From positions 1 through 16,176 of the forward strand of contig JAPTWR010000045.1 in NCBI GenBank assembly GCA_028065135.1: a stretch of DNA of 16,176 nt. The letters are read 5' to 3'. This stretch comes from Acidithiobacillus sp. (lineage in GTDB: Bacteria; Pseudomonadota; Gammaproteobacteria; Acidithiobacillales; Acidithiobacillaceae). Shown one piece after another: positions 1-14,249 of the stretch (position 1 is its first letter; each line of letters starts with the position of its first letter). A program made the translations under genes and the position numbers. Under the pieces are notes generated by a model. It saw only the letters and a program-made list of their open reading frames with translations, had not been told where the DNA came from and made no database searches.

Positions 1-2
1 TC

Positions 3-719: not shown

Positions 720-766
720 TATCCACTTCACCCTTGCAGGGTGCGGCCCAGGTTCGCCACCAGTAG

Positions 767-791
767 CCCCGGCCAGGAACCGGGGTTTTTT
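767..791 (+). terminator. Rho-independent terminator after the partial first gene
   Basis: A perfect 6-bp stem CCCCGG/CCGGGG (767-772 with 780-785) encloses a 7-nt loop CCAGGAA and is followed by six T residues. It is nearly identical to the terminator split by the element at 1696-1871, and so shows what the uninterrupted form looks like. Confidence 0.85.
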
Positions 792-823
792 ATGTCCACT
801 CCTTCGCGGGACACGCGACTCCT

Positions 824-836
824 AACCGGTGGTGAG
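824..836 (+). repeat. 13-bp intergenic repeat AACCGGTGGTGAG, copy 1
   Basis: An exact second copy lies at 13213-13225. Both copies are in intergenic DNA upstream of a conserved box (copies at 950 and 13318). Here GTGGTG (829-834) could pair with CACCAC about 80 bp downstream to form a long imperfect hairpin in the 720-1020 spacer. The spacer also holds a run of nine C (907-915). No gene is seen in it. Confidence 0.4.
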
Positions 837-949
837 GGGATTGGGAAAGGAAAAAGGATCGGGCACGGCTGCAGCCGCAACAACATCGGCGCTTTTCTTT
901 ATCCCACCCCCCCCCAACACCACTATCTCGGCGACCGTTCCAGGGCGAG

Positions 950-985
950 AAACCGCGATCAGGTTCCGCATGGTCCGGTAAGAAT
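950..985 (+). promoter_or_regulatory. Conserved upstream box, copy 1 (barrel pseudogene)
   Basis: It reads AAACCGCGATCAGG, then TTCCG, five bases, GTCCG and TAAGAAT. GATC lies 64 bp before the ATG at 1021. The family consensus has a GATCAGGTCC core, pentamers GTCCG repeated ten bases apart (one helical turn), and a -10-like TAnAnnT about 27 bases after GATC. A TTGACA-type -35 is absent, and the core sits where a -35 would be, which suggests a factor-dependent promoter. The family is seen directly; promoter function is inferred. Confidence 0.6.
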
Positions 986-1020
986 GTAGGCGATAACGCC
1001 TTTTCCTTGAGGATTTTCCC

Positions 1021-1653
1021 ATGAAGAAAGTTTTGATTCCCGTCATCGCGGCCATGACCCTTAACGCCTCCGGCCTAGCTATGGCCGGAACCACGAGCAT
1101 CGGCATTGGTTACGACAATGTGGGCATCCACCTGGGCAATGGCATCAACGCCAGCGTCCCGCTGGCGAACTCACCGTAGGCCACCGGTTCCGTGACAATT
1201 ATGGTGTTGGTTTTGACATGGTGGATGGCGCCGGCAACGGCCTGACCTATCAACACCTGCAGGTTAGTGCCGATAAGCTGTTGCCATTTGACGGCGGCAA
1301 CCTCTCGCCGGAAGTCATAATCGGTGGATCCCGCGTTGGTGTCGCTGGTGACAATGTGTATCACGTCAGCACCGCCTACGCGGGTTTTGGCGCTTCGTAT
1401 AGCTACCCCATTGGTCGATATGTCTCTCTTGATGGCAGTGCCGCCATCGGCCGCGACTTCGCAACACATGTAACCGGGTTGCACATGGTCGGAGGATTGT
1501 TTTACCAGGCTGGCGCGGAGGTGGATTTTAGCGGTGTGGGACCGGGTCTATTCAGCGTTGGTTACGAATACCGCCACCTGCCCATCTCATGTATCCCACA
1601 GTATCCACATGAACACCAGTGGCTTTCAGGCGCGGTACAGCATCACTTTTTAG
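1021..1653 (+). pseudogene. Frameshifted outer-membrane beta-barrel protein
   Basis: The start at 1021 has a GAGGA ribosome binding site (TTGAGGA, about 1007-1013) and encodes a clear signal peptide (MKKVLIPVIAAMTLNASGLAMA). The frame stops after 52 codons at TAG 1177-1179. The homologous reading continues in another frame (ELTVGHRFRDNYGVGFDMVDG, then barrel strands such as VSTAYAGFGASYSYPIGRYV and LFSVGYEYRH). It returns to the first frame near 1590-1610 and ends MNTSGFQARYSITF at TAG 1651-1653. The terminal aromatic residue is the classic outer-membrane barrel C-terminus. At least two compensating frameshifts (about 1158-1167 and 1580-1610) are needed, so the gene is broken unless the sequence has errors. 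The longer open frame running to 1871 is an artefact that reads into the inserted element. Confidence 0.75.
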
Positions 1654-1695
1654 TATTGTGCCATATCCCGCAGGATGCAGCCCCGGCCAGAGGAA

Positions 1696-1871
1696 CTAGC
1701 CGTTGGCGAAAGGTGTTGGTTTTTGGTGCCTTGATTCCCGCAAACCCGTTCGTAGCTTGGTTCTCAGAGGATTTGCCATCGGCGGAGATTTTTTCTTCAA
1801 TAAAAAGGCCGCAAACCCTTTATTGGGTGCGGCGTTCAGTCAAACCACCCACACCTTTCGCCAACGGCTAG
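1696..1871. mobile_element. 176-bp MITE-like element with 21-bp terminal inverted repeats and 9-bp target duplication
   Basis: The ends are perfect inverted repeats over 21 bp (1696-1716 and 1851-1871), beginning CTAGCCGTTGG and ending CCAACGGCTAG, with weaker similarity further in. Direct repeats CCAGAGGAA flank it at 1687-1695 and 1872-1880. No transposase can be encoded, so it would have been moved in trans by a full-length insertion sequence with the same ends. The 9-bp duplication is compatible with several IS families and does not identify one. The interior has a minus-strand terminator at 1802-1833. The target is the loop of a transcription terminator. Confidence 0.85.
1802..1833 (-). 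terminator. Minus-strand terminator inside the inserted element
   Basis: On the minus strand GCCGCACCC, an AATAAA loop, GGGTTTGCGGC and then CTTTTTA form an 8-9 bp stem with a 2-nt bulge and a five-T run. It would stop minus-strand transcripts. It may be the remnant of the end of a transposase gene in the parent insertion sequence. Confidence 0.55.
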
Positions 1872-1966
1872 CCAGAGGAACCGGGGCTTTTTATTGTCTG
1901 GCGTCAAAAAAACCTTGCTCGGTATTTCCAAGAGGCGTGGAACTTGCCTGATAAGGAGATACAACC

Positions 1967-2143
1967 ATGGAAACGCTCTTCACTGTTCTGGGATTTTTCA
2001 TTCTCATGGCCTGCCTGTTTTACATCATCGATGTCATCCAGGAGAACGGGTTCGCGCCGGTGCTGAAGGTGTTTGCATTCCCATTCATTCTGATTTTGAT
2101 AGGCATAAATGCCATTTATGAATGGATACGCTGGAATATTTGA
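1967..2143 (+). CDS. Small hydrophobic membrane protein, 58 aa
   Basis: The ATG at 1967 is preceded by a strong AAGGAG site (TAAGGAGATACAACC). The protein has two membrane-spanning stretches, about residues 4-22 (LFTVLGFFILMACLFYIID) and 33-50 (LKVFAFPFILILIGINAI). They are joined by a short polar loop (VIQENGFAP), and the tail is basic and aromatic (YEWIRWNI). I do not recognise the family. It lies between the split terminator and traG in the same direction, which would fit a small inner-membrane accessory of the coupling protein or an entry-exclusion-like factor. That is inference from position and topology only. Confidence 0.7.
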   Translation: METLFTVLGFFILMACLFYIIDVIQENGFAPVLKVFAFPFILILIGINAIYEWIRWNI

Positions 2144-2153
2144 CCGCGCGGTT

Positions 2154-2184
2154 CTGGCCGCCATCGCCATCAGGCGGCGGCCAG
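2154..2184 (+). promoter_or_regulatory. Hairpin in the traG leader
   Basis: A perfect 9-bp stem CTGGCCGCC/GGCGGCCAG (2154-2162 with 2176-2184) encloses a 13-nt loop. It falls between the stop of the 58-aa gene and the traG ribosome binding site AAGGAG (2216-2221). No T-run follows, so it is not an ordinary terminator. It could be an RNA processing, stability or regulatory site. Confidence 0.4.
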
Positions 2185-2228
2185 CCCTACAGAGGGGGTT
2201 AACCACCGTCTCTGTAAGGAGTGCCGTC

Positions 2229-4433
2229 ATGGCGAACCCCAATCTGTATCAGATCCCCAAATCCCAGGGCGACATGACCCGTGTGGTCTGGCCCGCGCTG
2301 GGTCTCTTTCTCATCATCACGCTCATCGGCTTTTGGGCTGCGACCGAATACGCCGCCTGGGCCTTTCAATATAACAAGGTCCTGGGTGCCGCCATGGGGG
2401 TACCCTTTGTCTATGCGCCGTGGGACATCGTTGTCTGGAGCCTGAAGTTCGACAAAGGACTTACCGGCCCGGTGCCCCATGTGTTCCAAATCGCGCACGC
2501 GACGATGGGCGTGTTTGGCCTGCTGGCATTACTCTTTCCCATCGCCTACTCCTACCGGCGCACGCGCAAGCTGGCGAATGTGCAAAACGACCTGCACGGC
2601 TCGGCGCACTGGGCCAGCGATGTGGAGGTCCACGCCACGGGGCTGCTCCCTTCTCCGCAAAACGCGGGCGGCGTCCTGTTCGGCGCGCATACCATGGAAA
2701 ACGGCGAGACTTTTTATCTTCGGCACAATGGCCCGGAACATATTCTGGTGTATGCGCCGACCCGCTCCGGCAAGGGCGTCGGTATCGTCATTCCGACACT
2801 GTTATCCTGGCTCGCCAGCGTTTTCGTGTACGACATCAAGGGCGAAAACTGGCACCTGACCGCAGGGTTCCGAGAGAAAGTGCTGGGGCAACGCTGCATC
2901 CGCTTCGCGCCCTGGGATCTGCAATCGGCAAGATTCAATCCGCTGGATGAAATCCGCCTCGACCACAATCTGGTGAAAGACACCCAGAATATCTCTACTA
3001 TGATCGTGGACCCCGACGGCAAGGGTCTGAACGATCACTGGGCGAAAACCGGCTTTGACCTGATGTCCGGCGTGGTGATCTTCGTCAAGTTGACACCAGA
3101 ATTGAAAGGCGATGAGCGGTGTCTCTCCACGGTTCAGGCCATTCTCTCCGACGGCGGTCCGATCCGTAAAATCGCGGAACGCATCGAGCAAGAGAAAGCG
3201 GACGCCCGTGACGAGGACGATGACGCCAAAATGATGGCGGGGTTCGCCGCCGTCATGACTTATGTGCGCGATACGGCGCATGAGATGCAGGAAAACGGAC
3301 AAGAAACGGACCAATGGCGACTATTCGGCTGGAAGGCGGCCGGCGAGGCGGCGCAAAGCTATCTGAACAAGGCCAGCAACGAGGCTTCGGGCGTTCTGTC
3401 CACTGCCATGAGTTTTTTGAGCGTCTACCGGGATCCGTTGGTGGCGCGAAACACCGCCGTCTCGGACTTCACGCTGGAATCACTGATGGGTGGACCGGAT
3501 ATCGACGGTAAACCCTGCGCGCGCAAGACCTCCTTCTACATGGTCAACCCGCCTACCGACGCGGACCGGCTCAAGCCGCTGACCCGTTTGCTGCTGAACC
3601 AGGTGGTGCGGCGACTGACGGAAAGAATGGATTTTGATGAATCCGGCCAGGGGCACAGCGTCTATCCCCATCGCCTGTTGCTGTTGATCGATGAGTTTCC
3701 CAGTCTGGGCAAGCTGGATGTGTTTCAGAAAGCCCTGGCATTCATCGCCGGATACGGCCTCAAAGCCCTGTTGATCATCCAGAGTAAGAATCAGCTTTAT
3801 GGTGAGTACACGAAAGACGAAGCGATTACGGATAACTGCCACATCCGCATCGCCTACACCCCAAATCGTGTGGATTCAGCGGAAGAGCTTTCAAAAACCG
3901 TGGGGAATTTCACAGCTTCGCACACCCAGCGGCAATATTCCGGCAACCGGTTGCAGGTGCTTTTGCAGCATGTCAACACGAATGAGCAGGTCATCCAGCG
4001 GCCCCTGCTGACGCCTGAAGAGTTTATGCGGTTACCGGCTACCGATGAGGTGGTTTTCGTGTCCGGCCATGCGCCGATCTATTGCCGGAAGATCGTTTAT
4101 TACACCGATCCAGTGCTGAACAAGCGCAGGGCGATACCGCCGCCGACGTTATCCTTTCCGGCCACATCGGTCCCCATTGACGTGGTACAGGCGGAGAAAG
4201 TGATACCGACTGCACCAGGCACGGCCGCATCGGCAGGCACAGAAACGGGCGGCAACAATTTGGGGCATAAGGAAGCAGAGTATCCCCGTGCGGTTATTGC
4301 CAGGTTCGTCGGAGCGAATCCGGTTCCGGAAAAATCCCCAAGCCTTGAACCACAAGGGCCGGTGGAGACCGCAAAAACCCGTGGTATTGAGGAACAGGAC
4401 GAGGAGAAGACCGAAGATGACCCCCTTGCTTAA
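2229..4433 (+). CDS. traG: Type IV coupling protein TraG/VirD4
   Basis: This is the inner-membrane ATPase that recruits the relaxase-DNA complex and hands it to the type IV secretion channel. The 734-aa length is usual for the family, though a little longer than some members. Two N-terminal membrane segments lie at about residues 21-40 and 90-108. A conserved LHGSAHWAS motif (122-130) follows. Walker A is APTRSGKGVG (176-185, Lys182), and Walker B is LLLLIDEFPSLGKLD with Asp488 and Glu489. The C-terminal ~80 residues are Pro/Glu-rich and probably disordered. The start at 2229 has AAGGAG seven bases upstream. An upstream in-frame ATG at 2109 would lack such a site and overlap the 58-aa gene. 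traF overlaps its 3' end, as in the RP4 traG-traF arrangement. Confidence 0.95.
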   Translation: MANPNLYQIPKSQGDMTRVVWPALGLFLIITLIGFWAATEYAAWAFQYNKVLGAAMGVPFVYAPWDIVVWSLKFDKGLTGPVPHVFQIAHATMGVFGLLALLFPIAYSYRRTRKLANVQNDLHGSAHWASDVEVHATGLLPSPQNAGGVLFGAHTMENGETFYLRHNGPEHILVYAPTRSGKGVGIVIPTLLSWLASVFVYDIKGENWHLTAGFREKVLGQRCIRFAPWDLQSARFNPLDEIRLDHNLVKDTQNISTMIVDPDGKGLNDHWAKTGFDLMSGVVIFVKLTPELKGDERCLSTVQAILSDGGPIRKIAERIEQEKADARDEDDDAKMMAGFAAVMTYVRDTAHEMQENGQETDQWRLFGWKAAGEAAQSYLNKASNEASGVLSTAMSFLSVYRDPLVARNTAVSDFTLESLMGGPDIDGKPCARKTSFYMVNPPTDADRLKPLTRLLLNQVVRRLTERMDFDESGQGHSVYPHRLLLLIDEFPSLGKLDVFQKALAFIAGYGLKALLIIQSKNQLYGEYTKDEAITDNCHIRIAYTPNRVDSAEELSKTVGNFTASHTQRQYSGNRLQVLLQHVNTNEQVIQRPLLTPEEFMRLPATDEVVFVSGHAPIYCRKIVYYTDPVLNKRRAIPPPTLSFPATSVPIDVVQAEKVIPTAPGTAASAGTETGGNNLGHKEAEYPRAVIARFVGANPVPEKSPSLEPQGPVETAKTRGIEEQDEEKTEDDPLA

Positions 4434-5058
4434 AAACGCCCTGTCTTTTTCCTACACCCCATTCACCACCACCCGGCGGCGGCACTGGAAGAGGTTGCTA
4501 CCTGTCGCTGTGATCGGGGCGATTGTCGCCGGTGCCGTCACGGCCTGGGATAACGGCAACTGGCGGCTGAACCTCTCGCCTAGCGAGCCAATGGGGATCT
4601 GGACCATCACGCCGATTACACAGGGAACCAGGCTGCACACCGGTGAGATCGTGACACTCTGCCCGCGCCTGCCGTCCGGCTATCACTACGGCTGGCTGGC
4701 GGACAAAACCCATGCCGCGAACACCTGCACCGATGGACGTGCGCCATTCCTCAAGACGATCGTGGCAGGCCCTGGTGACGTGATTCGCGAGACTGGTCAT
4801 GGCGTCATCATTAAGGGCCGACCGGTCCCGGACAGCAAGCCATTGTTTTATACCACCAGCCGTCCGCAGGTCCGGCTTCCGCAATGGAGGGGGATCATCA
4901 CGCTCAAGGCGGGACAATATTGGGCCTACGGTGCGGGGGATCCGCGTTTTTCCTTCGATTCACGGTACTGGGGACCGTTCCGGCAGACGCAGGTACGGGG
5001 CGTTGCCACCCCGGTCCTGACCTGGCGGTGGCGATGGACGCCTGGGTTGAAAGACTGA
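4417..5058 (+). CDS. traF: Conjugative pilin-processing peptidase/cyclase TraF (S26 family)
   Basis: TraF is a membrane-bound serine peptidase related to signal peptidase I. In RP4 it trims the C-terminus of the TrbC pilin and joins the ends into a circle. This 213-aa protein has a basic N-terminus, one membrane segment (about residues 27-43), the nucleophile in SPSEPMGIW (Ser56), the general base in FLKTIVAGPGDVI (Lys113) and a family Asp in FDSRYWGP (Asp181). The spacing resembles RP4 TraF Ser37/Lys89/Asp155. The ATG at 4417 overlaps the end of traG by 17 nt and has GAGGAG (4401-4406) upstream, so translation is probably coupled. Its likely substrate, TrbC, is at 13388. A role as a general signal peptidase is less likely. 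Confidence 0.93.
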   Translation: MTPLLKNALSFSYTPFTTTRRRHWKRLLPVAVIGAIVAGAVTAWDNGNWRLNLSPSEPMGIWTITPITQGTRLHTGEIVTLCPRLPSGYHYGWLADKTHAANTCTDGRAPFLKTIVAGPGDVIRETGHGVIIKGRPVPDSKPLFYTTSRPQVRLPQWRGIITLKAGQYWAYGAGDPRFSFDSRYWGPFRQTQVRGVATPVLTWRWRWTPGLKD

Positions 5059-5062
5059 AGAG

Positions 5063-5108
5063 GCACCCCGTGAAATGAAAATTTTTGCTCGATACTTTCA
5101 AGGGGTGC
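5063..5108 (+). other. Imperfect hairpin after traF
   Basis: GCACCCC-G-TGAAA (5063-5075) pairs with TTTCA-A-GGGGTGC (5096-5108), giving 12 of 13 pairs around a 20-nt AT-rich loop. The palindromic run GGGGTACCCC follows it. There is no T-run, so intrinsic termination is doubtful. A role in transcript end formation or as a protein-binding site is possible. Confidence 0.35.
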
Positions 5109-5142
5109 GGGGTACCCCCGCCACCCTTCACTACGTCCAAGG

Positions 5143-5179
5143 AAACCCACGATCAGGTCTCCGTCCGTCCGGTATAGGT
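5143..5179 (+). promoter_or_regulatory. Conserved upstream box, copy 2 (barrel gene)
   Basis: It reads AAACCCACGATCAGGTCT, then CCGTCC GTCCG and GTATAGGT. GATC is 64 bp before the ATG at 5215, the same distance as copy 1. The -10-like TATAGG is the closest of the set to a consensus -10. Confidence 0.6.
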
Positions 5180-5214
5180 CAGGAACATCCTGTTTCTCGA
5201 CTCCGGAGATCGTC

Positions 5215-5877
5215 ATGGCACGCATACACAAAACTTTTCATCGCAAGGCGTTAATCGTCGCACTGGCCTTTGCAGTTCTTTCCATTTTTTCCTCCACCTA
5301 CAGTCTTGCAGACGGCGCAACCTCCCCGTTTTCCATAATCGCCGGTGCTGGCACAACCGGCATATTTGGCGGAGCACAGTACCGTGAATCGCCATATTTT
5401 TCCACAACCGCAGAAATCGGTGGGCTGAATGTAGATCCGCAACTTTCTTCGGGCGGAGCTAGTTATAACATGAATATTCATTTGTTCAACGGCTATGTGT
5501 CTGAGCAGTGGTATCCCTGGCGGCGTGGGTTTTATGTCACGGCAGGTGTTTTTATCAATGGTAATAATCTGTCCTTGGCCCCCGCAGCATCAAACGCTGG
5601 ATATTATGCCCTGGCGACCCCTGCAAAAGTCACGATTAGCCCCTTTGATCCGTATTTTGGCTTGGGCTATGAGCAGCGTTTTTCAAGACGCTCGCACTGG
5701 TCATTCAATGTAAGTGCAGGCGCCGCATATCAGGGCACTCCAAAAGTCAGCGTAACGCACGGCGTTGGGCCGTATGCGCAACATGCATATACCGCAGAAA
5801 TCCCCAGCCTGCAGCAGTCTTTGAGCGGCTTTAAGTGGTACCCGGTTGTCCAGGCCGGCATTCAGTACCGCTGGTAA
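5215..5877 (+). CDS. Predicted outer-membrane beta-barrel protein, 220 aa
   Basis: The N-terminus is a typical signal peptide (basic RIHKTFHRK, hydrophobic ALIVALAFAVLSIFS, cleavage near SLADG). The mature part alternates polar and aromatic residues as barrel strands do (FYVTAGVFINGNN, DPYFGLGYEQRF, SFNVSAGAAYQG). It ends VQAGIQYRW, with the terminal aromatic residue recognised by the BAM machinery. The length fits an eight-stranded barrel. No enzyme motif is recognised, and a lipid A deacylase or OmpW-type family cannot be confirmed. It is a self-contained unit with its own box (5143) and terminator (5957), directly after traF. It belongs to the same broad class as the broken barrel gene at 1021. 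Being inside the transfer region, it may act in surface exclusion or mating-pair contact (inference). Confidence 0.75.
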   Translation: MARIHKTFHRKALIVALAFAVLSIFSSTYSLADGATSPFSIIAGAGTTGIFGGAQYRESPYFSTTAEIGGLNVDPQLSSGGASYNMNIHLFNGYVSEQWYPWRRGFYVTAGVFINGNNLSLAPAASNAGYYALATPAKVTISPFDPYFGLGYEQRFSRRSHWSFNVSAGAAYQGTPKVSVTHGVGPYAQHAYTAEIPSLQQSLSGFKWYPVVQAGIQYRW

Positions 5878-5956
5878 AAAACAGTACAGGAAAAAACCCC
5901 TGATTTTTTTAAATGGTGAGAGCTCGCGTGAATACATCACGGAATGAACACCACTC

Positions 5957-5982
5957 AATCCGGCCACCGCGCCGGATTTTTT
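5957..5982 (+). terminator. Rho-independent terminator after the barrel gene
   Basis: A perfect 8-bp stem AATCCGGC/GCCGGATT encloses the 6-nt loop CACCGC and runs into a T tract. It lies 80 bp past the stop codon. The rest of the 5878-6135 spacer holds the next conserved box. Confidence 0.85.
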
Positions 5983-6067
5983 GTGCCTCAGCGGCCCCTT
6001 TGAAGGGGATTTACCGCGTCAGAAAATTCAATTTTGCAGTGGCCTATAGGTGTGGTTCTACCGCATC

Positions 6068-6104
6068 AAAAACAGCGATCAGGTCCGTCGCCGTCCGCAT
6101 AAAT
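6068..6104 (+). promoter_or_regulatory. Conserved upstream box, copy 3 (autotransporter-like gene)
   Basis: It reads AAAAACAGCGATCAGG, then TCCGTCGCC GTCCG and CATAAAT. The GTCCG pair is exact and ten bases apart. GATC is 59 bp before the ATG at 6136. The leader after it shares GCAGATCCACT and GAGCACTGCC with the leader of copy 5. Confidence 0.6.
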
Positions 6105-6135
6105 GGCAGATCCACTTTCCAACAAGAGCACTGCC

Positions 6136-8610
6136 ATGAATATCGCACCAATATCTTCATTCCGTCGCCGCGCGGTGACCATCGCCGTCTTTCTGGCCCT
6201 CGCGGTAGCCATGCCGGTCACCGCAAACGCCGCGGCGCCGCTAATTCCGACATCTTCCGACATCGGCAACTACGACGGCGGTGGCGGGTTCGGTACGGCG
6301 ATAGACGCAACCAGCGGGACCACGATCACCTCTCAGCAGTCCACGCCGCAAATCACTTTCGACGGCGGCAATGTCCTCGATACCTACGATGCAGGGAGCC
6401 TGGGCACGGGTGACATGTGGGTGAACCCCAATGGAATTAGCCTTGGACAGAATGGAACGCTGACCGTAGACGCGGGGAATCTGAACCTCACCGGGTTCGG
6501 GAACGGCAGCCAAATCGGCCTCCAGTCCCTGGACACGCTCACCGTACAGAATACTTCATCGCCATCCACACTCACGGCGACGACCACAACGGCCTCAGCA
6601 CCCTATGACACCAACGTATACTTGTCCGGTGTCGACCCACTAAATGGCGGACTTGCGGATAACGCCGCAGGCAATCTGGGCTTTGGCGAGTTCGAGAGCG
6701 GCGGCGTTCTGTATGGCAATGCGACAAACAGTTTCGGCGGCCCTGCGACCAACGATATTCCTTTGAGCTCCTTGGCCTTGGGGTCCGCTAGTTCCGGGCA
6801 GATCAGCTTGTTTGACTCCACTGTCACCAATGACGGCAACGTAACCGCCAATGATGCCGCCGGACTTCTGGTGGCTGGGGTTGGCGGGGATAACACGTTT
6901 AGCTCCTACACAGACACCGTCAACGGACCCGCCACCATCGAAAACCTCATCAGCGGTGGATACCTGATTTTCGCGGCTGGCCAATTTACAGCCAGCAGCT
7001 TGGATTTGCTGGCACCAGAAGGCACGACGTACTTCCAGTCGCTGAGCGTGAGTCTGGGAGGCACCGGTACCATGACGACCAACGCAGGTGTTGACGCTGC
7101 CCCCGGTCTCGCGGTCGATGGCAATGTGCTGAATCAGGGCGGCAATTTCTACGCGGGTGGCGGGTTGAGGGTGTCTGGCGAGTTGACGCAGACCAGTGGC
7201 AACCTCTACCTGACCGTCACTCCCAGCAACACCCTCGCAGCGACCGGTGGCGCGCCAATCATCTCTGCCAGCCAGTTCAATGTGAGCGGCGGCAATGTGT
7301 TCATCGATGCATATGATAGCAAGGACACGAACATTACTAGTCCGTTTCCTGGATCCATGATTTCGTCCGGCAGCGGTAGCTTCGCTAACGGGGATAAATG
7401 GGCGCTCATCAAATCCACCGGGAGTGGGGTAACGAACACATCCAACCCGGCGGATGCTTACATCGTTTACGATGGCAGTCAGTCGTCCACGATCGCGGGA
7501 TATCAGCCTTACCTGGCGGAAACTTCCACCGCAGACTATTTGTGCATCGGGTCCGATTGCGTGACGTCGGCACCCGCTCCGGCACCTGCGCCTACTCCAG
7601 CACCTGCGCCCGCTCCGGCTCCGGCTCCGGCTCCAGTACCCGTGCCAACGAAGATCATCCCCGTCCACGTGGTGACCCCAGTGCAAGAAGCAAAGCCGAT
7701 CCTGGCTGACGCTCCGCAGGCAACCCAGGCGGCGATCCGGTCCGACACGCAAACTCTTGTCAGCACTGGCGTTGTCGGTGGCGGTCCGCGCGGATTGTGG
7801 TTAAAAACGCTGGTTGGCTTCAGCCGCCAAGGGGGATACCAGGGCATGAACTATGGCTTGCTGGCCGGGTATGGAAAGTCCGTAGGACCGGATGGGCGCG
7901 ATGTGGCAGGTGTTGCGTTCAGCGCGGGCCAGGCCGGGCTGGGGACTGGCTGGCGGGACTTCACCAAGGCCAGTGATTACGGCTTGTGGCTGTATGGTAC
8001 CTACTACCCCTCTGCTTCTCGTGCCTGGAAGATCACGGGCACGATTGGTGGCGGATTGTCCACCAACACCCTGATGAGCACGGCCTTGGGATTGCCCCAG
8101 ACGGCGCACTTCGGGGGTGGTTTCATGGGAACCGAGATCCGGGCTTCTTACTGGAAGACACTGGACGGCATCATCGTTAGCCCGCGGCTCAGTGTTGGGT
8201 ATAACCAATCCTGGACGAGCGGCTACAGCACCCGCGGCGGCGGCCCTCTGGACGTGCAGGTGAGCAGTGAGAATACCGGTCAGGCATACCTGGAACCAGC
8301 CTTGCTTGTCGGCAAGAAATTCAACTACCGCAGCCAATCTGGTAACCATACCGTGTTACCTCAAGTGCGGTTGGGTATGGTGGAAAACGTGGGGCCGAAC
8401 CCGTCAGCGGAAATCAGTTCCGGGCAAGTTGCAGGACAGGTGCAGGGTTTAGCTTATCCCCACCTGCAAGGCATGGCGGAATTGCGTCTGGATGTGGTTT
8501 CCCACACCTGGTTCAGCAAAGGTTTGTCGGCCAACGTCTCGGCCCGTCAACTCTTCGGGGGCGGCGCATCCAGCACGGAATTCGTGGCGGCCATCAAGTA
8601 CCACTGGTAA
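6136..8610 (+). CDS. Autotransporter-like surface protein, 824 aa
   Basis: The start at 6136 is preferred over the in-frame ATG at 6103, because AAGAG lies just upstream and the signal peptide begins here (SFRRRAVTIAVFLALAVAMP, cleavage near ANAAA). Residues ~30-470 are Gly/Asn/Thr/Ser-rich with many short repeats of beta-helix type (GTLTVDAGNLNLTGF, NVLNQGGNFYAGGGLRVSG). The only cysteine pair is near residue 470 (LCIGSDC). A Pro-Ala linker spans residues 479-504. The last ~280 residues (about 540-824) look like a membrane barrel (GLWLKTLVGFSRQGG, YGLWLYGTYYPS, ending AAIKYHW). The order signal peptide, passenger, linker, barrel matches type V secretion. A Pro-rich linker is not itself diagnostic, and an adhesin role is inferred. 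The gene has its own box and terminator. Confidence 0.75.
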   Translation: MNIAPISSFRRRAVTIAVFLALAVAMPVTANAAAPLIPTSSDIGNYDGGGGFGTAIDATSGTTITSQQSTPQITFDGGNVLDTYDAGSLGTGDMWVNPNGISLGQNGTLTVDAGNLNLTGFGNGSQIGLQSLDTLTVQNTSSPSTLTATTTTASAPYDTNVYLSGVDPLNGGLADNAAGNLGFGEFESGGVLYGNATNSFGGPATNDIPLSSLALGSASSGQISLFDSTVTNDGNVTANDAAGLLVAGVGGDNTFSSYTDTVNGPATIENLISGGYLIFAAGQFTASSLDLLAPEGTTYFQSLSVSLGGTGTMTTNAGVDAAPGLAVDGNVLNQGGNFYAGGGLRVSGELTQTSGNLYLTVTPSNTLAATGGAPIISASQFNVSGGNVFIDAYDSKDTNITSPFPGSMISSGSGSFANGDKWALIKSTGSGVTNTSNPADAYIVYDGSQSSTIAGYQPYLAETSTADYLCIGSDCVTSAPAPAPAPTPAPAPAPAPAPAPVPVPTKIIPVHVVTPVQEAKPILADAPQATQAAIRSDTQTLVSTGVVGGGPRGLWLKTLVGFSRQGGYQGMNYGLLAGYGKSVGPDGRDVAGVAFSAGQAGLGTGWRDFTKASDYGLWLYGTYYPSASRAWKITGTIGGGLSTNTLMSTALGLPQTAHFGGGFMGTEIRASYWKTLDGIIVSPRLSVGYNQSWTSGYSTRGGGPLDVQVSSENTGQAYLEPALLVGKKFNYRSQSGNHTVLPQVRLGMVENVGPNPSAEISSGQVAGQVQGLAYPHLQGMAELRLDVVSHTWFSKGLSANVSARQLFGGGASSTEFVAAIKYHW
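7570..7647 (+). repeat. Pro-Ala dipeptide-coding repeat
   Basis: Thirteen consecutive dipeptides, mostly Ala-Pro, with Thr-Pro once and Val-Pro near the end, are encoded by imperfect hexamers such as GCTCCG and GCACCT. The repeat separates the passenger-like region from the barrel. Codon wobble between units suggests an old repeat, but the unit number may vary between relatives. Confidence 0.8.
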
Positions 8611-8638
8611 TACAGACGGTAAACCGCACATCCACTAC

Positions 8639-8663
8639 GGCCGGGGCAACCCCGGCCATTTTT
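8639..8663 (+). terminator. Rho-independent terminator after the autotransporter-like gene
   Basis: A perfect 8-bp stem GGCCGGGG/CCCCGGCC encloses the 3-nt loop CAA and is followed by ATTTTTC. It is 28 bp past the stop codon. Confidence 0.88.
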
Positions 8664-8680
8664 CTGTTCAGCCCCCCCAA

Positions 8681-8718
8681 AAAAACGCGATCAGCTGGCG
8701 CGAAGCCGACAAATAGGT
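8681..8718 (+). promoter_or_regulatory. Conserved upstream box, copy 4, divergent (TraG-like paralogue)
   Basis: It reads AAAAACGCGATCAG, then CTGGCGCGAAGCCG and ACAAATAGGT. The left half is well conserved, but the GTCCG pair is degraded to CTGG and AGCCG. GATC is 89 bp before the ATG at 8778, farther than in other copies. A run of seven C and seven A (8672-8685) abuts it. Confidence 0.45.
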
Positions 8719-8777
8719 AGAGGCCCGGCATGGTGCCGTCCTCACTATTTTTTTTCCTACCCAATGAGGTACTTGCC

Positions 8778-10061
8778 ATGAACATCTTCAATTGTATTTT
8801 TAGCAAGAGCAACAACCAGCCAACAGAGGATAATCTATGGGCACGCGGTTTCATCCAGAATCATCCAGTTGATCATTTTCATAAAGGTATTGTTCTGGGT
8901 AGCCACAAGTCCAGCAAGGGCTTCGGTAAGCGCAAGGCTGTCACTTATCCCGGTAACGCCCCTCTTCTGGTGGTTAGCCCGGCCCGTGGGGGATTCACTA
9001 CCAGCATCGCCATCCCCACGCTGTTCTCGACGGATAGTCAATTCTTGGTGGCACCAGACATCAATGGTGAACACTACCAGGCGTTGTCCGGGTATTTGAA
9101 GGACGCGGCGCTGAAATTTGCTCCCGCATCCGAAGACACAGTGCATTACAATCCGCTGCAATTTGTGCGGTTTAGAACTGAACACGAATTGCGGGACATT
9201 ATGCAGATTGCGCATGCGCTGATTGGCAATCATGATATGGACGGTCTCTTTGCAAAAATGGCATCAACCGTGATCGTGGACGCCATTCAACAGGTCTTCG
9301 CTGAGGGGAAACGCCTGCATGACGCGGTGCCTTTTACTGACCAGATAGTGATGCTCGACGGCGATATGGATTATCTGGATTTGGGTTACGCCAAGCCAGA
9401 TATTACGCTGAATGCCGTTTACCAACTGATCCATGACACCCCTGAAAAGTTAAATCATCTGCAGGGACGTCTAGAGGGGAACGAGTGGTCTGGCGTCCTC
9501 AAAACGTCCGAGTCAATCTTATCCCCGTTCACGGACCCGCTGATTGCCAAAGCCACCGCCGATTGCGAAGGCCTTTATTGTAGATACCACAAGGGCATAT
9601 TCCTGGTCACAGGTGCATTGGATGTTCAACGGCTGGCCCCACTGTTCCGGGTGATCGTGGAACAGCAACTGCGAAGCGGATTCGACAGCCCAACTCTGTT
9701 GTGCGGCAAAAACAGCTTACTCGTGCTGGATAATCTGTCGGAACTGGGCTATCTGCCCAGTTTGCGAAAGAGCCTGCCTGTCGCAGGGGATCGTGATCTG
9801 AAGTTTCTTCTCCATACGCACAGCGTTCGCCAGATCGAAGTGGTCTATGGGGCTGCCGCAGCGGGCATCCTTGAAAATAGCACAACTCGTGTGTATCTAG
9901 CACCAGTCCAGATCGGAGATGATATTGCGTATATGGCATGGCGGTCGATGGGAGCACGCAAAGATTCTGCCGTGATTTTTGAAGGTGAGAAACCGTTTGC
10001 CGTCATCGACAAGGCCCCATGGTACCGGGACAACACCATGCTCTTGAAATCCCGCCTGTAA
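8778..10061 (+). CDS. Degenerate TraG/VirD4-like paralogue (predicted pseudo-ATPase), 427 aa
   Basis: Read against TraG in this window it keeps the family skeleton. NLWARGF matches GSAHWAS, and KGIVLGSH matches GGVLFGAH. LLVVSPARGGFTTSIAIPTL (64-82) matches ILVYAPTRSGKGVGIVIPTL. SGVLKTSESILSPFTDPLIA matches SGVLSTAMSFLSVYRDPLVA. LLVLDNLSELGYLPSL (314-329) matches the Walker B region. The Walker A Lys is Phe73 and the Walker B Asp-Glu is Asp318-Asn319, so ATP hydrolysis is not expected. It has no N-terminal membrane segments and a shortened core. The start at 8778 has GAGG upstream; an ATG at 8730 is too close to the predicted -10. The frame is intact over 427 codons with its own box and terminator, which argues against simple decay. 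A regulatory or adaptor role towards TraG or a substrate is inference. Confidence 0.75.
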   Translation: MNIFNCIFSKSNNQPTEDNLWARGFIQNHPVDHFHKGIVLGSHKSSKGFGKRKAVTYPGNAPLLVVSPARGGFTTSIAIPTLFSTDSQFLVAPDINGEHYQALSGYLKDAALKFAPASEDTVHYNPLQFVRFRTEHELRDIMQIAHALIGNHDMDGLFAKMASTVIVDAIQQVFAEGKRLHDAVPFTDQIVMLDGDMDYLDLGYAKPDITLNAVYQLIHDTPEKLNHLQGRLEGNEWSGVLKTSESILSPFTDPLIAKATADCEGLYCRYHKGIFLVTGALDVQRLAPLFRVIVEQQLRSGFDSPTLLCGKNSLLVLDNLSELGYLPSLRKSLPVAGDRDLKFLLHTHSVRQIEVVYGAAAAGILENSTTRVYLAPVQIGDDIAYMAWRSMGARKDSAVIFEGEKPFAVIDKAPWYRDNTMLLKSRL

Positions 10062-10081
10062 AGCGCTTACGCCACCAACTC

Positions 10082-10106
10082 AGGCCGGTCCAACCCCGGC
10101 CTTTTT
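10082..10106 (+). terminator. Rho-independent terminator after the TraG-like paralogue
   Basis: A 7-bp stem AGGCCGG/CCGGCCT (10082-10088 with 10096-10102) encloses a 7-nt loop and runs into TTTTTC. It lies 21 bp after the stop codon. Confidence 0.87.
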
Positions 10107-10140
10107 CTTTTCATCATCCCGCGCGCTCCAATCCCTCAAC

Positions 10141-10175
10141 AAAACCTGCATCAGGTCCATCGGCATCCTTACAAA
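10141..10175 (+). promoter_or_regulatory. Conserved upstream box, copy 5 (operon containing trbB)
   Basis: It reads AAAACCTGCATCAGGTCC, then ATCGGC ATCCT and TACAAA. The core has CATC in place of GATC. It is 61 bp before the ATG at 10210. The leader repeats GCAGATCCACT (10178-10188) and GAGCACTGCC (10200-10209) found before the autotransporter-like gene. Confidence 0.55.
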
Positions 10176-10209
10176 CAGCAGATCCACTCATCAATTCAGG
10201 AGCACTGCC

Positions 10210-10566
10210 ATGTTGACCGCCAAAGACATTCTGGACAAGCATTCGGTCGCGGATTATGCCGTGATTTACCTGGGCGCCCGCCGCCCATCTCCCGTCATCG
10301 ACCCGAATACTCGCTATTGCGTGGAGGAAACCCCCGCCCCAGAACTCTGCAAAGACCGGGATGGCAACGTCATGATCTTCGACAGCGAGGCCCAGGCGTT
10401 CGATTTTCGCAAAGCCTTGGGGATTCCATATCCGGTGCTGGCTTTCCATGACCAGCCGCTGCCGGATTTTGGACCCAACTTCGCGCCGGACATGGACGAG
10501 CCGGAAGGTTCCGCGTTTGATCCCGACGAAATGGACATCCCCGACATTGAGGAGCCCCTGGCATGA
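10210..10566 (+). CDS. Small acidic protein of unknown function, 118 aa
   Basis: The ATG at 10210 follows TCAGGAG, a good ribosome binding site. There is no signal peptide or membrane segment, so it is predicted cytoplasmic. Residues ~1-85 look folded (LTAKDILDKHSVADYAVIYLG, FDSEAQAFDFRKALG). The last ~30 are strongly acidic and Pro-rich (DMDEPEGSAFDPDEMD IPDIEEP), probably disordered and perhaps a contact site for a basic partner. The family is not recognised. Its stop overlaps the next start by 4 nt (ATGA), so it is translationally coupled to the exported 554-aa protein and then to trbB, suggesting a role at the transfer apparatus. Confidence 0.75.
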   Translation: MLTAKDILDKHSVADYAVIYLGARRPSPVIDPNTRYCVEETPAPELCKDRDGNVMIFDSEAQAFDFRKALGIPYPVLAFHDQPLPDFGPNFAPDMDEPEGSAFDPDEMDIPDIEEPLA

Positions 10567-12227
10567 AGGCCGCGAAAAATCTCCGCATGGCGGTGCTGAC
10601 AGCGATTCTCGCCCTGCCGGTACTGGCCACGGGCGGTGCTTCCGCCGCCACCGCATCGAATGCCGCCCTTGCCAATGACACCGGAGTTTCCCAGGCCGAA
10701 GTGCAAGCCGGGAACTCCTGGTTTAACAGCGACCAGAACAGTACCGGCTACCAGAACAGCGGGCAGTTGCAGACGGGGAACTTTTTGGGCGGACAGTCCC
10801 AGGTCCAGGGATCCCTTGCGGCCAGCCAGTCGGCGGCGGCCACGGATCCGTACTTCGCCAGCGTTCTGGCCCAGTACTACAACCTGTACAACGGCTATTA
10901 CAACAATTACCTGACGGACGAATCCTTGGCGTCAGGGGCGTCATCCGCCTATTCCGCCTGCATCGCCAAAGGCGGAACCAACTGCCTCAATAAAAGCGCC
11001 TATTACAGCGGCCTCGCCGTCACGGCTTACGGACAGTACCAGTATTATTACGGTCTCTGGAATAAGGACTACCAGCAGCAGCAGGCGATGGAGGCCACAG
11101 CCGGTCAGCAGGCTATATTATCCGGAACATCTGCACAGCAGTCCCAGCAATCCTACGGCAACTACCAGAACGATCAGTCCACCATGAACGCTAACGCTCA
11201 GGCGGCGGCGACGGATACGCAAACAGCGAACATCGGAACCAATACCGCCGCCGTGAGCTCCGGCCAGCAGGCGGCATCCAATGCGCTGAACACCATTCAG
11301 CAGGAGACGGGGGTCACTCAGAACCAGCAGAGCGGCGCTGTTGTACCGGGCACGACGGTGTCTACCTTCTCCTATACCGACCCACTACAGACCGCCATGG
11401 AAAACGCCAACCAGGCGGCCATGCAGGATGCGCAAACCGCCGTGGTCCAGCAGCAGTACAGCGACAACCGGTCGGCGGCGGCTACCACTGCCGACAGCCA
11501 AGCGCAGGCGGATGGCGCAGCGGCTTCCGTGGCGCCGACACCGGAGAGTGCCACGATCTGGTCCACCGGGGCCAGCCTCGCGAGCGGCACGGCTAGTGCT
11601 TACCAACAGGACGCGAACCAGACGGCGGTGACGGCACTGCAGGCCCAACAGTCGTTTGTCCAGAACCAGAATCAGGCAAATGCCGACGCCATTCAGATCG
11701 CCAACGATACCAACGCGGCCGCAGAGCAATACGCCCAGCAGCAGGCAGCGAAGAGCGGCGTGACATTCACGGCGCCAGTTACGTCGGACACCGCCGTCCA
11801 GAACCAGATCGCCCAGGCGCAATCGGCCATCAACGCGGACAGCATGACCGCCGAAGTCCAGACAGCGAATGCTTACAGCCAACAGCGCATCGCATCGGAT
11901 ATGACGGCCAGCGCCGGTACAGCATCGCAGCAGGCTCAGGCGGCCCAGAGCAATGCCAGTGCAGCGCAGAGCACCTCGCCATCTCTGGCGAAAACCTGGG
12001 ATGCCGTGGCGGGATCGGAAACCGCCAGCACTTCCCAGGCCCAGCAAGCAGCACTTTCAGCCGACAGCGCGGCCAGTACGGACATCGCCGCCGCCAATGC
12101 GGCGGAGGCCAACGCGAAACAGGCGGCGGGGAGCACGGGCATGGACGGTGCCGCGATGACGCAGGGACAAAACGCCGCCCAGGCGGCTTTTCAGGCCATT
12201 CAGCAAGCCACAGGGGTACCGCAATGA
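10563..12227 (+). CDS. Exported Gln/Ala-rich protein of unknown function, 554 aa
   Basis: A signal peptide is clear (AAKNLRMAVLTAILALPVLA, cleavage near GGASA). Residues ~95-180 form a Tyr-rich segment (AQYYNLYNGYYNNYL, YGQYQYYYGLWNKDY) with the only two cysteines (ACIAKGGTNC), a likely disulphide. The rest is Gln/Ala/Ser/Asn-rich and predicted helical or coiled coil. A motif recurs: GQQAASNALNTIQQETGVTQ at 234-253 and [20 protein letters not shown] at the very C-terminus, with a short TGVSQ at 40-44. The product would be periplasmic or surface-exposed. It occupies the place before trbB, where RP4 has no such gene. It could be a pilus-tip or TrbJ/VirB5-like part, but no homology is claimed. 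It overlaps both neighbours by ATGA. Confidence 0.75.
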   Translation: MKAAKNLRMAVLTAILALPVLATGGASAATASNAALANDTGVSQAEVQAGNSWFNSDQNSTGYQNSGQLQTGNFLGGQSQVQGSLAASQSAAATDPYFASVLAQYYNLYNGYYNNYLTDESLASGASSAYSACIAKGGTNCLNKSAYYSGLAVTAYGQYQYYYGLWNKDYQQQQAMEATAGQQAILSGTSAQQSQQSYGNYQNDQSTMNANAQAAATDTQTANIGTNTAAVSSGQQAASNALNTIQQETGVTQNQQSGAVVPGTTVSTFSYTDPLQTAMENANQAAMQDAQTAVVQQQYSDNRSAAATTADSQAQADGAAASVAPTPESATIWSTGASLASGTASAYQQDANQTAVTALQAQQSFVQNQNQANADAIQIANDTNAAAEQYAQQQAAKSGVTFTAPVTSDTAVQNQIAQAQSAINADSMTAEVQTANAYSQQRIASDMTASAGTASQQAQAAQSNASAAQSTSPSLAKTWDAVAGSETASTSQAQQAALSADSAASTDIAAANAAEANAKQAAGSTGMDGAAMTQGQNAAQAAFQAIQQATGVPQ

Positions 12228-13195
12228 GCACGGACAATTCACAAAAGCCGCAAACCCAGGCGCAGGTCTACCGCGAGCGTCAGATGGAGAGTCTGCGCCG
12301 CACGCTGGGCGACGACATTCTGGAGTTCCTGAACGACCCGGCCATCATCGAGATCATGCTGAACCAGGACGGCATGGTCTGGGTTGATATTCTGGGCGGG
12401 GACATGGAGCCCCGCTCGGCGATGGACCCGGTGCGCGCCAAGATGGTGATAGAAACCGTCGCCTCTATGCTGGAAACCAGCATCACCAAGGAGAATCCGA
12501 TCATCTCCGGGGAATTACCTTTAGATGGCTCCCGCTTCGAGGCGCAGATTCCACCCATCGTCGAGGCGCCAACCTTCGCCATTCGCAAAAAGGCGCTGCT
12601 GGTCTTCACCCTGGATGATTACGTCGCCAAGGGAATCATGACGGAGCGGCAGCGGGACCTGATTATCGACGCGGTCCGGGAGCGGAAGAATATTCTGGTG
12701 AGCGGGGGTACCGGTACTGGTAAAACCACTCTGGCTAACGCCATCCTTCACACGATTTCAGAAAAAACGCCAGATCACCGAATCATGATCATCCAGGATA
12801 CCCTTGAGCTACAGTGCGCTGCGCCCAATGCGGTGTTCTTCCGCACGTCGGATGAAATCGACATGACCCGGCTCCTGAAATCCACCATGCGCATGCGCCC
12901 TGACCGGATCATTGTCGGCGAGGTGCGTGGGAAGGAAGCCCTGGACCTGCTCAAAGCCTGGAACACCGGCCACCCCGGTGGCATCGGCACCGTCCATGCC
13001 AACGACGCAAGAGCCGCACTGGTGCGGATCGGCATGCTTGTCCAGGAGGCCAACGTGCCGCCCAATCCGGAACTCATTGCCGAAGCCGTCAACATCGTCA
13101 TCAGCATCAAGCGCACGGCAACCGGTCGCATCGTTGACGAAGTGCTGGCAGTGAAGGGTTTTGAAAACGGACGGTTTCTGACCGAGTCGCTATAG
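12224..13195 (+). CDS. trbB: Conjugal transfer ATPase TrbB (VirB11 family)
   Basis: TrbB is the cytoplasmic hexameric ATPase at the base of the mating channel that drives pilus assembly and substrate transfer. The 323 aa match the family length. The N-terminal domain ([20 protein letters not shown]) leads to a linker ([18 protein letters not shown]). Walker A is GGTGTGKTT (161-169, Lys167), and an Asp box (IIQDTLELQ) lies near residue 190. The Walker B/His-box region is [19 protein letters not shown] and [10 protein letters not shown]. It starts inside the stop of the preceding gene (ATGA), so it is the third gene of a coupled operon, unlike RP4 where trbB opens the trb run. Confidence 0.96.
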
Positions 13196-13317
13196 CCGCC
13201 GCAGTTGACCGCAACCGGTGGTGAGAGGGTGGAGGGAGAGAAAAGTCCTCCGCCCCTTCCTTATTTCCCATCACCCCAACCCCTTGCAGGGGGCAAACTC
13301 TTGCAGGGGCAGCCTCA
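13196..13317 (+). other. Spacer after trbB with repeat copy 2 and hairpin-forming sequence
   Basis: It holds the second copy of AACCGGTGGTGAG (13213-13225). GGAGG and CCTCC flank an A-rich loop (about 13231-13252), and CTTGCAGGGG occurs as a close direct repeat (second copy near 13301-13310). No clean stem plus T-run terminator was found, so trbB transcripts may continue into trbC. No gene is seen. Confidence 0.4.
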
Positions 13318-13355
13318 AAAAAACCGCGATCAGGTCCCCCGGCGTCCGCATACAT
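13318..13355 (+). promoter_or_regulatory. Conserved upstream box, copy 6 (trbC)
   Basis: It reads AAAAAACCGCGATCAGG, then TCCCCCGGC GTCCG and CATACAT. GATC is 60 bp before the ATG at 13388. It is one of the best copies, and the trbC ribosome binding site CAGGAGGAAA lies downstream. Confidence 0.65.
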
Positions 13356-13387
13356 AGCAGGCACATCACATCCAGGAGGAAATTGCC

Positions 13388-13759
13388 ATGTTGAAAAAGT
13401 TGAAGCAAGAAGTGGTAAACGCTGGCGTACAGTTTGGTGCGGCGGTTCACGACGCCTGGTTCAAGGCTGGCATGGTCATCGGCGTGATCCTGCAGGCGGG
13501 AGCCGTTCCGGCCTTCGCCACAGGATCCGGCACCCTGCCCTGGGACGGTCCCATCCAGACCCTGACCAGTAACCTGACCGGTCCGGTCGCCACCGCCATC
13601 AGTGTCGTGGCGTTCCTGGCCGCAGGTGCCGCGCTGGTCTTCGGGGAGGAATTGGGCGGCATCGCCAAGAAGGCCCTCTACGTGGTCCTGGGCATTTCCA
13701 TGATCGTGTTCGGCAACAACTTCATGAGTGACCTGGGCATCACCGGCGCCATGGTGTAA
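13388..13759 (+). CDS. trbC: Conjugative prepilin TrbC (VirB2 family), probable cyclic pilin precursor
   Basis: This is the 123-aa precursor of the conjugative pilus subunit. A long leader ends AVPAFA before TGSG, giving a signal peptidase site between residues 44 and 45. The mature part has two membrane segments (about 66-86 and 96-110) and the family motif LTGPVATAISVVAFLAAGAALVF, matching RP4 TrbC (VTGPVAFALSIIG) closely. The C-terminus is DLGITG followed by AMV. RP4 TraF cuts a Gly-Ala junction near the end of TrbC and joins the ends, so cleavage after Gly120 would release AMV and give a 76-residue circle (45-120), close to the 78 residues of RP4 pilin. The RP4 C-terminal extension beyond this point is absent. 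The start has AGGAGGAAA upstream. Confidence 0.93.
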   Translation: MLKKLKQEVVNAGVQFGAAVHDAWFKAGMVIGVILQAGAVPAFATGSGTLPWDGPIQTLTSNLTGPVATAISVVAFLAAGAALVFGEELGGIAKKALYVVLGISMIVFGNNFMSDLGITGAMV

Positions 13760-13781
13760 AGCCGCGGTGAAAAGGAAGAAC

Positions 13782-13808
13782 AGGCTCGGGATGTTTCCGG
13801 GCCTTTTT
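13782..13808 (+). terminator. Rho-independent terminator after trbC
   Basis: AGGCTCGG (13782-13789) pairs with CCGGGCCT (13797-13804), 8 pairs including one T-G, around a 7-nt loop and followed by TTTTTC. It separates trbC from trbD, which may let pilin mRNA be made in excess. Confidence 0.83.
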
Positions 13809-13864
13809 CTTTCCCTCAACCCCTGCCGGGTGCAACCCCAACCACTACTCGCGCCACCACTTTC

Positions 13865-13899
13865 AAACCGCAATCAGGTCCGCGTGCGTCCGTATACCT
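13865..13899 (+). promoter_or_regulatory. Conserved upstream box, copy 7 (trbD-trbE)
   Basis: It reads AAACCGCAATCAGGTCCG, then CGTGC GTCCG and TATACCT. The core has AATC in place of GATC, and the GTCCG pair is exact. It is 55 bp before the ATG at 13927. TATACC is a good -10 candidate. Confidence 0.65.
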
Positions 13900-13926
13900 G
13901 ACAGAAACATTTATTTGGAGACCGGA

Positions 13927-14232
13927 ATGGACACAACCACAAAGCAGGAAATCACCATCCACCAGGCGCTGCACCAGCCCATTCTGGTCATGGGTGGCGA
14001 GCGCAATCTGGTCATGATGCTGGGCGTCATCGCCGGCGTGTTCATCTTTTCCTTAGCGCAACTCTGGGCCGCCGTGATCGGCATCCTGCTTTGGGTTTTC
14101 GGGCAATGGGGCCTAGCGGAACTAGCGAAGTACGACCCCATGCTGAGTAAAACCGGGAAACGCCACATGAAGTACAAAAAATACTATCCGGCTTCGGCAA
14201 CACCTTTCGCGCCGAATCGCGTCATCAAATAA
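13927..14232 (+). CDS. trbD: Conjugal transfer protein TrbD (VirB3 family)
   Basis: A 101-aa inner-membrane protein of the VirB3/TrbD family, which works with TrbE in pilus biogenesis. The N-terminal motif ITIHQALHQPILVMGGERNLVM is characteristic of TrbD. One hydrophobic region, probably a hairpin of two segments, spans about residues 29-63 (MLGVIAGVFIFSLAQLWAAVIGILLW as two stretches). A basic tail follows (KTGKRHMKYKKYY). The ATG at 13927 is preferred over the TTG at 13915, because TTGGAG (13915-13920) serves as its ribosome binding site. trbE follows after 17 nt. Confidence 0.92.
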   Translation: MDTTTKQEITIHQALHQPILVMGGERNLVMMLGVIAGVFIFSLAQLWAAVIGILLWVFGQWGLAELAKYDPMLSKTGKRHMKYKKYYPASATPFAPNRVIK

Positions 14233-14249
14233 TCACAGGAGACTAAACC

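Follow-up and report, generated by a model that had tools for sequence, protein, structure and literature searches.

One box precedes many transfer operons in the closest systems described so far, SetR/SetCD of SXT/R391 and AcaCD of IncA/C; in SetR/SetCD the box lies at or next to the -35 position without a TTGACA, and a lambda CI-related repressor is found near an att end (PMC4344509, in excerpt). Acidithiobacillus ferrooxidans carries ICEAfe1 and ICEAfe2, of which ICEAfe1, a Tra-type integrative and conjugative element (ICE), shows a rise of its transfer genes with mitomycin C (PMC6370655, in excerpt), and ICEAfe2 "remains primarily uncharacterized" (PMC10322971, in excerpt). ICEAfe2 is apparently Trb-type, and searches of the open-access literature found no account of how Trb-type Acidithiobacillus elements are switched on. 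The stretch analysed here, the window, comprises 16,176 nucleotides from the same genus (contig JAPTWR010000045.1, positions 1 to 16,176) and is part of a Trb-type conjugative element, in which seven copies of a box stand upstream of transfer and surface-protein genes.

We favour the reading that this box serves as control site for a transfer regulon private to a Trb-type ICE and is read by an element-encoded activator, and give it a probability slightly above one half (about 0.52). Related elements were sought in 31 genomes of one order, taken to be Acidithiobacillales, of which three (G376, G387 and G378) are rich in boxes. By analogy, the element may work on a plan like that of SetR/SetCD, whose regulon in SXT is laid out in the same way (PMC4344509, in excerpt): a box precedes most transfer operons (18 boxes in G376, 20 in G387), and an S24 repressor is encoded in all three box-rich genomes. 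Unlike the SetR/SetCD system, these are Trb-type Acidithiobacillus elements with leader hairpins. Membership is not claimed, because the box is different and no FlhC relative was found in G376, G387 or G378.

Seven copies of one box in the window

The preliminary description of this DNA had reported seven intergenic sites sharing an upstream box, six of them 55-64 bp and one 89 bp before a start codon. This observation is confirmed. When anchored on ATCAG, the sites (958, 5152, 6078, 8690, 10150, 13329 and 13873, all on the + strand) align without gaps over about 25 bases, and the measured distances to the start codon are, in the same order, 63, 63, 58, 88, 60, 59 and 54 nt. Each site was scored with a matrix made from the other six sites and five copies from G378, some of which are close copies, so that the scores (Table 1) are not fully independent. 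Every left-out site was outscored in the window only by other members of the set (32,284 positions, both strands). For each of the seven, no position of a background of five G376 stretches (90 kb, both strands) reached its score (0/179,660).

By score the sites rank, from strongest to weakest, 13329, 6078, 13873, 10150, 958, 5152 and 8690. The GGTCC core is gone from site 8690, and site 10150 has ATCC as its second half. Two of the three weakest sites precede a broken gene (958) and a TraG paralogue without Walker A (8690), which would fit loss of use, but site 5152 is also weak and precedes an intact gene.

The proposed geometry of the repeat held in part. Its 10-bp period stands and fits, as far as sequence can tell, a dimer on one face of the DNA; the five-base spacing does not, since clean copies have GTCC and GTCC six bases apart. 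The proposed TAnAnnT-like -10 proved to be an approximate likeness with no single register, the corresponding strings being TAAGAAT, TATAGGT, CATAAAT, CATACAT, TATACCT, TACAAAC and CAAATAG. As described earlier for the core, which lacks TTGACA, a sigma-70 -35 was seen neither in this box, here called type A, nor in its sister, type B.

Two box types and their leaders

Type A recurs in G378, where it precedes orf118-trbB, two tandem trbC genes and trbD (all these on two contigs) and also a primase gene. On contigs L192 and L193, the two tandem trbC pilin genes have one box each. A softer matrix adds trbF on two further G378 contigs (24.1 and 20.6) and a homologue of gene g200 (21.9); because non-leader matches reach 20.8 (720,938 positions), these boxes rest mainly on their place. 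Across the 31 genomes, the type A pattern with at most two mismatches was found at 22 places. Five of these have 0 or 1 mismatch, all on conjugation contigs of G378, and 17 have two mismatches, as against 20 for a backwards control. A two-mismatch copy in G396 (L303:2520), with an A-tract and second half and no clear gene behind it, looks like a true orphan type A box.

At homologous places, G376 and G387 carry the related type B, ACAAACAGGTCCCCGATGGCCATTA. With at most three mismatches it occurs 18 times in G376 and 20 times in G387, whereas the backwards control found none in either and 7 over the whole set of 31 genomes. Copies with no more than one mismatch are limited to three genomes (14 sites in G376, 13 in G387 and 1 in G381). 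All 18 sites of G376 lie between 2,916,024 and 158,834 across the contig origin (~164 kb), with none elsewhere in its 2.92 Mb. Downstream of 36 of 39 B sites, at 50-110 nt and on the same strand, there is a start codon with a Shine-Dalgarno-like stretch and an open reading frame (ORF) of at least 80 aa; in 31 of those the distance is 50-63 nt. The perfect type B box of G381 (L264:8612) precedes an EAL-domain gene in a genome without PF11112 (see below) and without a close trbE, and may be a stray copy or belong to another element.

Type B precedes trbC-D-E (trbC by homology), orf118-trbB, trbF (VirB8), trbL, two barrel genes and a gene for a 703-aa surface-type protein, as well as ArdC, primase, relaxase and antA-domain genes. 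Further boxes precede genes labelled by eye as trbJ, traJ, traK, traL, a topoisomerase operon and g201-g200. The traG box is whole in G387 and shortened in G376, and type B elements have no separate box before trbD. The joining of pilus genes, barrels and a surface protein by one box, described earlier for the window, is seen again in G376, whose 703-aa protein has no match to the autotransporter-like protein of the window. Nor is the motif spread over genes or chromosome: in G376, type B keeps to the element, and type A at 0 or 1 mismatch occurs on conjugation contigs only. The idea of one regulon linking pilus genes, barrels, autotransporter-like protein and TraG paralogue is supported as to the common set of boxes, the DNA-binding reader being left as a choice of candidates. 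The confinement of the sites, their spacing and their conservation together give good support to a regulon that is private to the element and has a box of its own.

The box thereby lists the genes that the element would treat as its transfer programme. Because this list includes the barrels and large surface proteins, these may serve mating. The box also makes the transcription units of the element recognisable from sequence, and the two types, which have similar gene content, offer a natural pair for finding the reader.

The box was not found in print in searches of the open-access literature. In PLSDB, megablast gave nothing but a 105-base trbB match in five Vibrio plasmids, blastn matches to the trbB region reached no more than 26% cover among those listed, and the box was recognised in none of 15 weak matches to the trbC leader. 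The type A pattern had two matches in IMG/VR, neither with a box-like leader in the stretches read, and these are taken as chance; a looser pattern matched 35 IMG/VR contigs (raw count), and exact type B matched none. A third box type was not found in G384 or more distant trb loci with a 9-mer test that also missed known type A boxes.

The box is asymmetric and about 28 to 35 bases long. Types A and B share (by eye) the upstream half ACCRCRAWCAGGTYC, which six of the seven window sites match with 0 to 3 mismatches, and differ downstream, where type A has GTCC again 10 bp later followed by an ATA-like string and type B has GGCCATTA. Among 40 B sites, columns A(-1)-T5 and G10-T19 are each kept in at least 38 and ten are invariant, a conservation raised by the choice of sites with at most three mismatches. 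Positions 6 and 7 are variable, and flanks upstream of -8 are near random.

These columns bear on the suggestion that the box is only a promoter cassette, duplicated before one gene after another, which the usual sigma factor of the host would recognise with no dedicated regulator. Some leaders are near-copies by eye (6078 and 10150), and window positions 6069-6138 and 13320-13360 both match the orf118 leader of G378. However, box columns are strong where flanks are near random, no copy with three or fewer mismatches occurs elsewhere in the G376 chromosome, and type B has no sigma-70 -10 (CCATTA agrees with TATAAT at 0/6 letters, CATTAC at 3/6). We consider such a cassette unlikely.

The leaders behind type B boxes have features of their own. 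In those whose next bases are not CCAG, T26 is kept in 17/21 and a purine at 27 in 21/21, which points to T26/purine 27 as a possible transcription start, approximately 7 nt after the box. Predicted folds of at least 5 pairs begin near the box end in 35/37 B leaders, with 21 different arm starts, some weak and with no shuffle control in that count. Compared with shuffles, B leader folds have a mean z of -1.5 and a median of -0.9 (18/36 below -1). The pairing of B leaders is also more stable with the 3' part of the same leader than with one swapped in from another (mean -8.1 vs -6.0 kcal/mol). Permutations did as well in 0/5000 cases for all leaders, 6/5000 for G376 alone and 0/5000 for G387, and singly 5/37 leaders beat 95% of swaps. 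The position of the predicted hairpin would instead place the start no later than the box end. With a start at 27, half of the stem would lie outside the native mRNA, and the hairpin would therefore form in read-through RNA only, for which T4 gene e and IS10 are precedents; with a start at or before 21, it would be in every transcript. Some type A leaders also fold (no control).

Such pairing, unmatched in 5000 permutations, could also mean that the box works at the RNA level, either as a leader element or, in type B, as a mini-ORF controlling translation. Positions 11-28 of many B sites, in box and leader, read ATG GCC ATT ACC AGA TAG, and an in-frame stop follows soon after the ATG position in 23/37 B sites, compared with 1 and 3 in the other frames. 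This surplus comes largely from one copied leader (TAG in 18/37), type A boxes lack such a start codon by eye, and the mini-ORF is not kept in type A; action in RNA is very unlikely. An improbable further proposal is a promoter class of its own, with an asymmetric box of 28 to 35 bp, an element-encoded factor and, in each leader, a hairpin lock that would silence the gene in read-through RNA and free it only on transcription from the box.

Candidate readers and mode of control

Under the favoured reading, the units for transfer, relaxosome, DNA processing and surface proteins would each carry a sense-oriented box, in most cases 50 to 63 nt upstream of the start codon. A candidate element-encoded DNA-binding activator would bind the half common to both types, ACCRCRAWCAGGTYC, and recruit the RNA polymerase of the host to a promoter that has neither a good -35 nor a good -10. 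This activator would probably be made only once DNA damage inactivates an S24 (CI/LexA-type) repressor, an SOS link through which the units would switch on together. The hairpin in B elements and some A leaders can cover the ribosome-binding site and could silence read-through RNA.

No S24 repressor gene is visible in the window. In G376, G387 and G378 an S24 repressor gene (PF00717) adjoins a YdaS/Cro-like gene (YdaS in G376 being below the Pfam cut-off), and a PF11112 gene is near the repressor in all three. The G376 ICE (C1 2910152-164793; L250, L258) has an integrase (PF00589, E 7.4e-18) beside a dus gene (PF01207, E 3.6e-65) and, at the far end, the PF11112 gene (E 2.5e-21) with the S24 and YdaS/Cro-like genes. 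This arrangement fits the dusA-specific integrative elements, in which the integrase adjoins dusA and a PF11112 excision factor (RDF) occupies the opposite end.

The PF11112 protein and g201 are candidate readers. The PF11112 family contains, among others, the pyocin activator PrtN and RdfN (PMC8409611, in excerpt). The protein has the PHROG label "excisionase" and may, by analogy, be an RdfN-type excision factor. It is kept as a candidate because the constancy of the protein goes with that of the shared half, and because this half, which it could read, resembles on the other strand (WTYGYGGT) one P-box unit, ATTGnn(n)GT. As in PrtR/PrtN pyocin activation, an S24 repressor and a PF11112 protein are encoded on one element. 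The P box usually has four repeats of ATTGnn(n)GTnn(n) (PMC4905994, in excerpt). Here no four-repeat array is apparent (best four-unit sum 17 of 24), and the exact unit is on the reverse strand of 2/12 type A and 1/37 type B sites. With at least 5/6 letters, a unit is found on the other strand in or near the box in 7/12 A and 23/37 B sites, compared with 10-13% of shuffles; the sites are not independent, and because all of them share the half, the likeness amounts to one coincidence of roughly one in ten. Should the PF11112 protein be the reader, excision of the element and activation of its transfer genes would both fall to one small protein. G389 has PF11112, and no A- or B-like box was recognised there in the stretches read.

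The second candidate, g201, encodes 98 aa with a weak HTH_17 match below the cut-off. In G376 and G387 a box stands before g201 itself, relatives with approximately 40% identity lie near the g200 homologue of G378, and some match occurs in 14/31 genomes.

A box before its own gene is what would be expected of an autoregulated repressor, and g201 therefore also speaks for the main rival to activation, in which the box is the operator of a global repressor over an otherwise active promoter; transfer genes would be kept low and repression lifted together, as with KorA or TrbA in IncP plasmids. A global repressor would give the same distribution of boxes. KorA, KorB and TrbA exert global control in these plasmids over tra and trb operons of the same P-type family; unlike the palindromic operators of KorA and KorB, the present box is asymmetric. 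By eye, the box covers the promoter region and leaves no good -35 or -10 hexamer for unaided activity, and the two g201 relatives in G378 show no box within 130 nt upstream of their called starts. Activation by a dedicated protein remains our first choice and a global repressor a possible but clearly less probable alternative.

A very unlikely alternative makes the box a promoter for a sigma factor or an RNA polymerase that the element itself encodes. No such domain scored above the cut-off in the element proteins scanned, and g206 does not track the box. Promoters of the ECF, sigma-28 and sigma-54 classes, compared by eye with their consensuses, were not favoured either. The g206 genes (L258:4682-6433, L263:5777-7552, L301:4156-6099 and L302:4038-6143) have no significant Pfam match. 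In the G378 contigs g206 is followed by a J-domain protein, and it is hypervariable, being 29% identical where trbF is 89% identical. As a reader, g206 was promising by co-occurrence and was set aside because of its divergence. A CII-like protein (PF05269) was likewise set aside. Lambda CII sites are TTGC-N6-TTGC, and type A similarly has two tetranucleotides six bases apart (GTCC-N6-GTCC), but the letters are other ones and neither G376 nor G378 has a CII match.

Several observations weigh against an element-encoded activator reading the shared half. First, the present sequence results do not tell activation and repression apart. Second, the shared half is not specific by itself: with 2 mismatches it also turns up at two places in the window that are not sites, and site 8690 fails at 3. 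Third, A and B genomes have PF11112 proteins of 99% identity despite their different downstream box halves, the PF11112 family has a precedent as excision factor in RdfN of dusA elements (PMC8409611, in excerpt), and the single B box of G381 and one A box of G396 are in genomes without PF11112. Fourth, other candidates fail to follow the box: the g206 homologues on a pair of G378 contigs share 29% identity where the trbF boxes agree at 31/35 positions, the CII-like protein is in one of the three box-rich genomes (G387), and FlhC (PF05280) is in none of the three, with the control found in E. coli and FlhD not searched.

Genes of the window

The window encodes a coupling protein, an S26 peptidase, barrel-like and autotransporter-like proteins (labels by eye), a TraG paralogue, orf118, a trbJ-like protein (by eye), trbB, trbC, trbD and trbE (Table 1). 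A protein search with orf118 (118 aa) gave 31 relatives of 63-91% identity, and all organism names given by the sources are Acidithiobacillus. The window trbE is 95 and 94% identical to those of two G378 contigs, 87% to that of G376, 86% to that of G387 and 64% to that of G384.

Table 1. Boxes, possible leader hairpins and genes of the window, with leave-one-out matrix scores of the boxes
Feature	Position	Strand	Remarks
Type A box before broken barrel gene	949..983	+	leave-one-out 15.5
Possible leader hairpin AGGCG-ATAA-CGCCT then TTTT	988..1001	+	fold, no shuffle control
Barrel-like gene, broken	1021..1653	+	4 in-frame stops in start frame; ATG 1021
Type A box before barrel 2	5143..5177	+	leave-one-out 13.1
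Barrel-like protein (barrel 2, by eye), 220 aa	5215..5877	+	43-44% identity to box-preceded G376 gene
Type A box before autotransporter-like gene	6069..6103	+	leave-one-out 42.3
Possible leader hairpin ATGGCAG...CTGCCAT reaching start codon	6103..6137	+	fold, no shuffle control
Autotransporter-like protein (by eye), 824 aa	6136..8610	+	no Pfam match
Decayed type A box before TraG paralogue	8681..8715	+	leave-one-out 6.1
TraG/VirD4 paralogue without Walker A	8778..10061	+	PF02534 E 2.5e-23
Type A box before orf118 - trbJ-like - trbB	10141..10175	+	leave-one-out 30.1; same place in G378
orf118, 554-aa protein (trbJ-like by eye, no Pfam match), trbB	10210..13195	+	
Type A box before trbC	13320..13354	+	leave-one-out 45.8
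trbC pilin	13388..13759	+	PF04956 E 6.6e-15
Type A box before trbD-trbE	13864..13898	+	leave-one-out 38.0
trbD (VirB3) and trbE (VirB4, cut by window end)	13927..16175	+	

The box at 958 is still recognisable although the barrel-like gene behind it is broken by stops; the open piece of this gene matches the barrel genes of G376 and G387. The TraG/VirD4 paralogue, which a decayed box adjoins, has SPARGGFTTS at the Walker A position as against APTRSGKGVG. A box precedes both the autotransporter-like gene of the window and the gene of the unrelated 703-aa protein of G376 (L189:11408-13519), which has YadA-like head repeats by eye. Between the broken barrel gene and traG, a 176-bp stretch (1696-1871) with 96% identity to a stretch of G376 (L188) has ends that match each other inverted over 25 bases, and resembles a miniature inverted-repeat transposable element (MITE) insert.

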